Part shown: in pieces, positions 5,401-33,650 of the stretch
How positions within the stretch are numbered: the stretch's first letter is position 1
How the letters are laid out: each line of letters starts with the position of its first letter
From: DHVE2 group archaeon
Lineage (GTDB): Archaea; Thermoplasmatota; Thermoplasmata; Thermoplasmatales; Aciduliprofundaceae
Reading direction: 5' to 3'
NCBI GenBank assembly: GCA_026993785.1
Contig: JALWRZ010000011.1
Coordinates: 1-51,575 of the forward strand
Length of the DNA: 51,575 nucleotides
Position numbers and translations under genes: made by a program
Notes under the pieces: model-generated
Database searches by the model: none
The model's input: the letters and a program-made list of their open reading frames with translations, nothing else
Told to the model about the DNA's origin: nothing

Positions 5401-5916
5401 ATGGTTTTAGGGATTTCTATAAGGATGGTTATGGAGTACATCTCGAAGAAAAAGGGGGTTGAAGGATTAAAGAAATTTTTCGATTATGTAAACGAGAAGA
5501 GTGTGCTTTTTACCAAGGAATCCGACATAGATGCCAAGGCAAAATACCCAGGCTATTACTTAAGCAGGTCTCTTATGGCAGCTTATAGAGTTCTGGGCGA
5601 TGATATGATGGAAGATTTCGGAAGATACTTTGGTGAGAGAATGAACATCAGTTTCCGTGGTCTTTTGGGCCGATTGCCTCCCCGCACTTGCATGCAGTTA
5701 ATAGTCTTCAACATGAGAAAATATCTTCCCATATTTCACACGGGATACAGGACTATAAGCAAGAGGGTTTACTGGCTTGTGGTTTCCAGGCTGCCAAAGG
5801 AACTCATGGGATTCATAAACGGGATAATGAGCTATCTCTTCGAAAAGCATGGTGGCGTGAGAGATATACAGAAATCGGTGGGTGAAGATAGAATAGAATA
5901 CACAGTAAGGCTCTAA
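5401..5916 (+). CDS. Unknown cytoplasmic protein, 171 residues
   Basis: Not recognised. It is a helical protein with no membrane segment and a conserved-looking centre: YPGYYLSRSLMAAYRVLGDDMMEDFGRYFG, then FRGLLGRLPPRTCMQL. The spacing of G-F-G-R-Y-F-G and L-P-P-R vaguely recalls the V4R/heme-NO-binding-like sensor folds, but this is too weak to assign. ATG 5401 is chosen over GTG 5392 because GGTGAT lies 4 nt before it and a TATA box sits at 5349-5356. It converges on the next gene with a 4-nt overlap. Confidence 0.7.
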   Translation: MVLGISIRMVMEYISKKKGVEGLKKFFDYVNEKSVLFTKESDIDAKAKYPGYYLSRSLMAAYRVLGDDMMEDFGRYFGERMNISFRGLLGRLPPRTCMQLIVFNMRKYLPIFHTGYRTISKRVYWLVVSRLPKELMGFINGIMSYLFEKHGGVRDIQKSVGEDRIEYTVRL

Positions 5917-32401: not shown

Positions 32402-33136
32402 TCATTGGAGAATTTCCGATAGAAGATAGTCTTTGGGTCTTCCCAGGGACTCTAGTGCGAGATTGAGTGCTTCCTCTCTGCTCATCTTCTCCTCGTACTT
32501 ACTATTTAGATACGCGATGATATCTCCGTTTCCATCGCCCAGTGCAGCAAATTTTGAGATGGTGTAAGCACCCGATGGGTCGTAGCACACAATTTTCTGA
32601 GATTGCGATGAACCGAGCATTGTTGCGGCTCCAAGCGGTCTCAGATCCGCTGCCACAGTATGACGCCAGTAAATCTTGGAAATGTAATAAATCAGTTCCT
32701 CATCATTATCAAATTTTCTTGCCAGAACACTGTGGATTATGTGATATGCATCCGCGGCCAGGCCTGAAAATGTAATGAGATATCTCTTTCCAATGTTGAA
32801 AATTTTTCTGTGCTCTACGCCTTTAAGCACCTTCCCGTTGTTATCCCTCTTCTCCTCTATCTTGGCCAGAAAGAGTATACCATGACGATGCACTATACCT
32901 ACAACGGGAGCACCTCTATATGAGGCCTCCATCGCATACTCCAACTGATAAATTCTGCCCTCAGGGGAGAAGATTAGCCTGTTATCGTATTCTCTGGCTA
33001 TTGAGGATACCCTGTCCAGATACTCCATAAGCGCAGCCCTGAGAAGCTCTGCCTTGGTGGAAAACATACCCGTTCTTGCCAGGGATTCAATGTACCGATC
33101 CACCTTATCCGGAAGCATCACCCTAACTTCACCCAT
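32402..33136 (-). CDS. Ribbon-helix-helix DNA-binding domain fused to a proteasome alpha-subunit domain
   Basis: A 244-residue two-domain protein. Residues 1-45 are a ribbon-helix-helix domain (GEVRVMLPDKVDRYIESLAR, FSTKAELLRAALMEYL): basic strand, turn, two helices, as in CopG/NikR-type regulators. After a linker of under ten residues comes a full proteasome alpha domain: the signature FSPEGRIYQLEYAMEASYRG, then HRKIFNIGKRYLITFSGLAA, RPLGAATMLG and YDPSGAYTISKFAALG. Like alpha subunits it has no N-terminal catalytic Thr. The RHH domain replaces the gating N-terminus of a normal alpha subunit. ATG 33136 is chosen because GGAGGT lies 7 nt before it. Likely a DNA-binding regulator with a ring-forming or ligand-sensing alpha domain; its role is unknown. 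Confidence 0.9.
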   Translation of the reverse strand: MGEVRVMLPDKVDRYIESLARTGMFSTKAELLRAALMEYLDRVSSIAREYDNRLIFSPEGRIYQLEYAMEASYRGAPVVGIVHRHGILFLAKIEEKRDNNGKVLKGVEHRKIFNIGKRYLITFSGLAADAYHIIHSVLARKFDNDEELIYYISKIYWRHTVAADLRPLGAATMLGSSQSQKIVCYDPSGAYTISKFAALGDGNGDIIAYLNSKYEEKMSREEALNLALESLGRPKDYLLSEILQ

Positions 33137-33152
33137 TTTTATTACCTCCATT

Positions 33153-33185
33153 TTAATGGATATTTCATGTATATTTTATGGATAT
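33153..33185. promoter_or_regulatory. Three tandem 11-bp direct repeats, probable autoregulatory operator
   Basis: Consecutive units TTAATGGATAT, TTCATGTATAT and TTTATGGATAT follow each other without spacing. They run from the TATA box to the expected transcription start of the RHH-proteasome gene. RHH dimers commonly bind tandem short sites, so autorepression is likely. Confidence 0.75.
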
Positions 33186-33192
33186 ATTTAAA
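33183..33192 (-). promoter_or_regulatory. TATA box of the RHH-proteasome gene
   Basis: Minus-strand TTTAAATATA predicts a start near 33161, inside the direct repeats, and a leader of about 25 nt. Confidence 0.6.
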
Positions 33193-33197
33193 CCTTT

Positions 33198-33233
33198 CCT
33201 AAGAAGGGGGCGGAGCCCCCTTTCTAAACCCCC
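33198..33233 (+). repeat. 36-nt hairpin repeat, copy 2
   Basis: AAGGGGGC-GGA-GCCCCCTT hairpin followed by TCTAAACCCCC. It matches 1548-1583 in inverted orientation except at one base and the loop. Confidence 0.7.
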
Positions 33234-33430
33234 GGAGGGGGCTGACGCCCTCTCTCTACATCCCCATAAAGATAAGGGAGGAGGGTAGAGGAGAGAACGA
33301 GCATCGGAAGATGCGAGCTTGCCCTCGGCAGAGGGCTAAACGAGCAACGAGCGAAGTGAAATGCGAGCCAGCCCTGCGTCTGCAGGGCGCTACGTAGGTG
33401 TCCCCTTGCCCCCACAAAAAGGAAGGGGGT
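33204..33430. repeat. GC-rich cluster of perfect hairpins, possible structured RNA or mobile-element remnant
   Basis: Successive perfect stems: AAGGGGGC/GCCCCCTT (33204-33222), CCCCC/GGGGG (33229-33241), GCATC-GGAA-GATGC (33301-33314), GCCCTC-GGCA-GAGGGC (33321-33336), GCCCTGC-GTCT-GCAGGGC (33371-33388) and CCCCC/GGGGG near 33409-33426. The middle part is a duplicated module: ACGAGCA...ATGCGAGC followed by a GCCCT hairpin, twice. It is much more GC-rich than the flanks and holds no credible ORF. Confidence 0.65.
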
Positions 33431-33650
33431 GGAGGAGAGTGGCTGCGGGAAATAATAGAAACATTTTGTGAATTTCGTAGATTGTGGATATGGGGTAAGG
33501 TGATCTCTGGCCCTTTGGTTCGCTTGCTAAAGAGTGCTGAGTTGTTCTATGCGGGGCCAAAAAGAGGATTAAGTTAGAGTGGGGAGACTGAAGAAGGGTG
33601 GTAGGTATTACCCAATGGAGGAATTTCTCAATAGTTATCCAAAATACAAA
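33431..33650. other. Intergenic stretch with no recognisable feature
   Basis: Between the hairpin cluster and the mannosidase promoter I see no ORF, tRNA or clear repeat. Only the matching ends GGCCC and GGGCC about 65 nt apart (near 33510-33565) hint at structure. Confidence 0.4.

Follow-up and report, generated by a model that had tools for sequence, protein, structure and literature searches.

A three-unit array of 11-bp direct repeats, a putative autoregulatory operator, at the promoter of an archaeal RHH-proteasome-alpha fusion gene

Three tandem 11-bp units at the promoter of an archaeal gene that joins an RHH domain to a proteasome alpha-type domain very probably form an operator through which the fusion protein controls its own promoter. 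The array lies in a 51,575-nucleotide stretch of DNA from an Aciduliprofundum-like archaeon, which was analysed as a whole and is referred to here as the window. It has an exact period of 11 bp, it is unique, and it is conserved with the fusion gene only. We propose that the fusion protein itself would bind the array and that the effect of binding would be repression. Operators of this kind are already known from RHH autorepressors that act on tandem sites. What is new is that the candidate tandem operator belongs to a paralogue of the proteasome alpha subunit and that the two have been retained as a pair throughout a class of archaea, in addition to the canonical alpha; in our literature search we came across no report of a protein that joins an RHH domain to a proteasome alpha subunit. 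The fusion and its putative operator offer a direct route to asking by what means archaeal cells sense or adjust their proteasome subunits, for which few regulators are known, in a small and fully specified system of one protein and one 33-bp site.

Promoter architecture and uniqueness of the array

The fusion gene lies on the minus strand of the window, with the following features.

33185–33199, minus strand: core promoter as read from the sequence, with a BRE-like GGAAAGG and the TATA box TTTAAATA; across loci an AT-rich box lies directly 5′ of unit 1
33173–33183, minus strand: putative operator unit 1, ATCCATAAAAT on the gene strand, just below the TATA box; its position at −47 from the ATG is kept in orthologues
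33162–33172, minus strand: putative operator unit 2, ATACATGAAAT, the middle unit and the best conserved in the family
About 33163, minus strand: predicted transcription start, between units 2 and 3, placed 25 bp from the centre of the TATA box, as is usual
33151–33161, minus strand: putative operator unit 3, ATCCATTAAAA, lying just past the predicted transcription start
33144–33149, minus strand: Shine-Dalgarno sequence GGAGGT, conserved in all six close orthologues
32402–33136, minus strand: RHH-proteasome-alpha fusion gene, 244 aa, ATG at 33136, with Pfam RHH_1, Proteasome_A_N and Proteasome
33002–33136, minus strand: RHH domain, aa 1–45, a strand of the form xE[VIL]Rxx[IVL]P followed by two helices
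32405–32989, minus strand: proteasome alpha-type domain, aa 50–244, without the canonical C-terminal helix, from Pfam and alignment to alpha subunits

The first-pass annotation had reported three contiguous 11-bp direct repeats at 33153–33185, and these are confirmed: the 11-mers TTAATGGATAT (33153–33163), TTCATGTATAT (33164–33174) and TTTATGGATAT (33175–33185) agree pairwise at 9, 9 and 10 of 11 positions, or 28/33 overall. The gene-strand units listed above (33183–33151) are the same repeats shifted by two bases in register. The repeats had also been described as spanning the TATA box to the predicted start. They do reach the predicted start and in fact pass it, but the TATA box lies outside the array, which begins at the downstream edge of the best TATA match (TTTAAATA, 33185–33192, minus strand), crosses the predicted start and ends at the Shine-Dalgarno sequence. 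Translation starts at the ATG at 33136 (MGEVRV...) rather than at 33151.

Six fusion genes were found in the sample of the window's family (G000, G006, G007, G011, G012 and G013), the five other proteins being 47–63% identical to the window's copy. All six promoters keep the array, its middle unit always at exactly 37 nt upstream of the ATG (−36 by the numbering of the motif search), and in each of them the best self-match falls at period 11; the third unit is degenerate in the A. boonei-type promoters (TAGCCAATAAA). The upstream neighbours are a GH38 mannosidase gene behind a dispersed repeat in the window, an endonuclease-like gene in G006, pyrG in G012 and a TldD peptidase gene in G007, G011 and G013. 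Since these neighbours are unrelated among the six loci, the array belongs to the gene and not to its neighbour. Conservation of the promoter would by itself be insufficient as proof of an operator, because 4 of 32 control promoters are conserved equally well between G000 and A. boonei, and the argument for an operator therefore rests on the exact periodicity. Outside these six genomes the fusion gene was not detected in G001–G005, G009 and other genomes of the family, some of them at least 94% complete, an absence from several close genomes that suggests repeated loss or transfer.

Two other explanations of the leader were rejected: an upstream ORF or leader peptide, since the ATG inside the middle unit is not conserved across the six family promoters, and an RNA element, since an Rfam search gave no match near the cut-off. 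Just upstream of the promoter, positions 33196–33460 of the window hold a GC-rich dispersed repeat with 54 matches in the genome, many of them 75–87% identical. This repeat adjoins the BRE, and promoter conservation ends there for that reason; we pose as a question whether it is MITE- or REP-like.

A period-11 scan of 431 kb of the window's genome and 400 kb of A. boonei found three 11-mers at the 28/33 level at the fusion promoter only, a masked run of N aside. Searched across the whole 1.66-Mb genome with up to three mismatches, a two-unit pattern matched the array and one poor site, and with at most one mismatch all of its matches in the six fusion-bearing family genomes fall at the fusion promoter. 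Eight family genomes in which the fusion was not detected gave two stray two-unit matches with at most one mismatch, not above the reversed pattern; at two mismatches the excess over background is gone. The first-pass annotation had named random scatter of the same repeats through AT-rich intergenic DNA as a result that would speak against an operator, and the pattern searches of genomes did not show such scatter.

Recurrence of the array with the fusion gene

Searches with a profile of the first 75 residues, run on 389 genomes of the phylum, recovered a further seven fusions beyond the family, each of them from the same class, and the fusion is present in 39 of 400 Thermoplasmata genomes, distributed over ten families (f1, f7, f16, f18, f20, f22 and f64–f67). 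When the first seven distant orthologues were scored with a matrix built from the six close promoters only, four reached p ≤ 0.004 relative to dinucleotide shuffles; in three of these the match lay at the same −37 position.

We assembled a non-redundant set of 32 fusion promoters, any two of which share less than 60% identity. Self-identity in this set stands out at two lags, 11 (z = 10.8) and 22 (z = 5.6), with all others at or below 2.5; lag 11 has 61 T[AC]C pairs and lag 22 has 32, compared with about 4 at other lags; and a free-start motif search scores 646 for period 11 against 281–375 for periods 9, 10, 12 and 13. The consensus of the gene-strand unit is ATACRT(T/C)AAAA with T[AC]C as its core, and more than half of the arrays start exactly at −47 from the ATG. 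Units flanking the three have mean scores of −7 (before) and −9 (after), compared with +8 to +9 inside, and the array is therefore three units long in most loci, the few longer exceptions being L144 with five units and L146 and L147 with four.

Two or more T[AC]C cores spaced by exactly 11 bp occur in 28 of the 32 fusion promoters but in only 55 of 977 controls (Fisher 1e-28). For at least three tandem cores the counts are 19/32 and 0/977 (Fisher 4e-32), the control set leaving out six fusion genes that carried three units, and the fraction is 16/28 when the window's family is set aside (Fisher 7e-28). The repeats might be thought to have arisen by chance or to be a general feature of AT-rich promoters or of leader RNA, such as an initiator or a translation signal, and in keeping with this the context is AT-rich and the Shine-Dalgarno sequence and TATA box are conserved too. 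We regard this explanation as extremely improbable, because three cores at 11 bp are found in none of the 977 control promoters and none of the 29 canonical alpha promoters, because the period is single, and because the array is kept in GC-rich genomes as well (L119, L121 and L154).

The array is found at fusion promoters in nine of the ten fusion-bearing families, with period 11 only. This recurrence is an independent line of evidence and supports the original proposal that the repeats are a strong candidate for an operator to which the fusion protein itself would bind, as does the absence of the array from control and canonical alpha promoters and the fact that it goes with the gene rather than with the neighbours. 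The operator could alternatively serve another DNA-binding protein, either a different RHH protein or an unrelated one, with the RHH domain of the fusion acting only in dimerisation or on other targets. The window's genome has nine Pfam RHH_1 matches, and binding by the fusion protein is something that we infer. Nevertheless, the site is present at one gene only, in fusion-bearing genomes, across nine families and beside differing neighbours; a second regulator would need an identical distribution and a single target, and we consider it unlikely that one exists. Binding by the fusion protein is thus the reading that we prefer.

Four of the 32 promoters (L118, L143, L150 and L152) do not show a pair of exact T[AC]C cores 11 bp apart. 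In L143 the array is visible only by the matrix, and in L118 it is missing; L150, L152 and their relative L159 apparently have no 11-bp array, although E3 and R5 of the protein are kept, and the operator in these three may be altered or gone. A sequence, ACCCACCAAAATGGAG, is common to the upstream regions of L150, L152 and L159.

The first-pass annotation had further looked ahead to a regulon at proteasome, chaperone or mbx promoters. This expectation found no support: with two- and three-unit patterns, searched in sets of 14, 4 and 33 genomes, matches away from the fusion gene were no more frequent than those of the reversed pattern, with the single exception of a five-unit array in G351, a fusion-bearing genome. 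The tandem 11-bp TACGT units of that array (L178, about 1495–1560; G351:C134:12186–12240) lie far from the fusion gene, between a gene for a PKD-repeat surface protein and gyrB, and could represent a second target or a minisatellite.

The fusion protein and its downstream partners

The RHH domain is recognised close to the Pfam threshold, with RHH_1 scoring 20.2 bits in the protein search (cut-off 20.5) and 23.1, above the cut-off, in the genome search. A structural model places helices at residues 10–21 and 28–46 of this part with low confidence (pLDDT 34–50, 5 sequences), and when the RHH part alone was searched against PDB sequences, nothing significant matched. The DNA-touching residues of an RHH strand are those at positions 3, 5 and 7 (PMC5569661). 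E3 and R5 are invariant in all 39 fusion proteins, and residue 7 is V, I or A in 34 of them. Viral contigs yielded only a distant, partial match at 37%.

The remainder of the protein resembles a proteasome alpha subunit. The model as a whole has a pLDDT of 76.5, the RHH part being low, and matches alpha subunits in the PDB (Foldseek 1ya7_A, E 2.6e-15). Proteasome_A_N scores 39.1 bits, above its cut-off of 27.7, and equivalog-level scores are missed (NCBIfam alpha scores 97 and 105 against cut-offs of 287 and 219, the first being TIGR03633 at 96.7). Alignment of the alpha-type body with archaeal alpha subunits begins at Tyr8, and we conclude from where the alignment begins that the RHH domain replaces the N-terminal gate tail. 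In common with T. acidophilum alpha (1PMA/1YA7) the fusion has the alpha-type fold and the N-terminal signature. It keeps the canonical positions D9, P17, G19, Y26, G80, D84, R130 and P131, and K66, the lysine of the HbYX pocket, is K in 32 of the 39 fusion proteins. It differs from T. acidophilum alpha in having an RHH domain where that protein has its gate tail, and in the loss of R10, L58, E65, R86, Y126 and about 25 C-terminal residues. Besides the T. acidophilum reference, the comparison of these residues drew on the canonical alphas of 25 loci. A canonical alpha gene is present in addition to the fusion.

In family f16 a PAC2-family gene directly follows the fusion gene at seven loci (L117, L138, L140, L142, L145, L146 and L148), starting between 4 nt before and 12 nt after its end. 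All six complete copies of the PAC2 protein that were checked have the HbYX motif MYG at their C-terminus, and archaeal PAC2 homologues can bind proteasomes via this motif (PMC3605417). The gene order and this motif suggest that the two genes are co-transcribed in f16 as a proteasome-related operon. The fusion protein probably keeps a proteasome role, because in this one family the co-transcribed PAC2 protein ends in HbYX. In f1 and f7 the gene directly downstream of the fusion is often that of an MFS transporter (G006, G013, L122, L123, L143, L150 and L159, with a remnant in G012); in the locus maps it lies at 5749–6918 in L034, 5659–6897 in L036 and 2220–3222 in L122, and also follows the fusion in L123 and L143, with a degraded remnant in L035.

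A more far-reaching possibility is that the fusion protein makes up a proteasome alpha ring or enters one, with RHH arms at the gate, such that the promoter would read the state of proteasome assembly. With seven members, such a ring would provide three RHH dimers and one spare, matching the exactly three units, and free or ring-assembled RHH-alpha would sit on the operator until released when beta subunits or the HbYX-bearing PAC2 protein engage the ring. Assembly of a seven-membered alpha ring with beta is uncertain, since the protein no longer has the C-terminal helix or some of the canonical positions, and we think it rather improbable that the promoter works in this way.

A candidate autoregulatory circuit and its relatives

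We favor a model of autorepression, in which RHH dimers of the fusion protein would fill three successive major-groove sites on the same face of the DNA, occupying it from about −22 to +11 as counted from the predicted start. The occupied array would block the loading of TBP, TFB and RNA polymerase, and by this promoter occlusion no initiation complex would form. Through such negative autoregulation the fusion gene would hold its own product low, an effect that would extend to the co-transcribed downstream gene, PAC2 or MFS transporter, where one is present. The alpha-fold part might serve to oligomerise the protein or to sense how proteasome assembly stands.

Binding by the fusion protein could instead activate transcription or tune it without repression, for example by recruiting or stabilising TBP, or the array could tether proteasomes. 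Unit 1 abuts the TATA box and the position of the array is nearly fixed with respect to both promoter and ATG, which would fit such roles, but activators usually sit upstream of the BRE. Moreover, known archaeal RHH factors whose sites overlap the start or the TATA/BRE mainly occlude the promoter (PMC5569661), and we judge activation, tuning or tethering to have little chance of being the function of the array.

The preference for repression draws on analogy with archaeal viral RHH repressors that work by occlusion, of which F55 of Sulfolobus spindle-shaped virus 1 (SSV1) is the closest. F55 is an archaeal RHH factor that represses through multiple 11-nt units lying over the transcription start or BRE, its own promoter included (PMC9608457, PMC5569661). 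The fusion gene likewise has tandem units at its own promoter that overlap the predicted start and TATA region. The F55 unit, ATAGATAGAGT, is not the unit of the fusion array (ATACRTTAAAA), and F55 is a stand-alone 55-aa protein with several viral targets, whereas the RHH domain described here is linked to a proteasome subunit and has three units at one target.

A bacterial parallel is ParR on parC of plasmid partition systems, whose tandem repeats are about 10–11 bp long, with 11 bp in R1. In the ParR/parC systems of R1 and pSK41, an RHH protein binds tandem direct repeats at its own promoter and the array represses the operon (PMC5016525). The parC arrays are long (ten repeats in R1) and act as a centromere with ParM, whereas the fusion array has three units; no ParM or ParA partner gene was found beside it, the neighbours being MFS, PAC2, L7Ae, DUF389, GH38 and TldD genes.

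SvtR, CopG and MetJ also resemble the proposed system, in that their RHH dimers occupy the major groove and bind cooperatively at their own promoters. CopG and MetJ operators are of the inverted type or consist of 8-bp met boxes, and neither protein has an alpha-fold domain. SvtR differs from the fusion in the same two respects, with an inverted-type operator (PMC5569661) and no alpha-fold domain.
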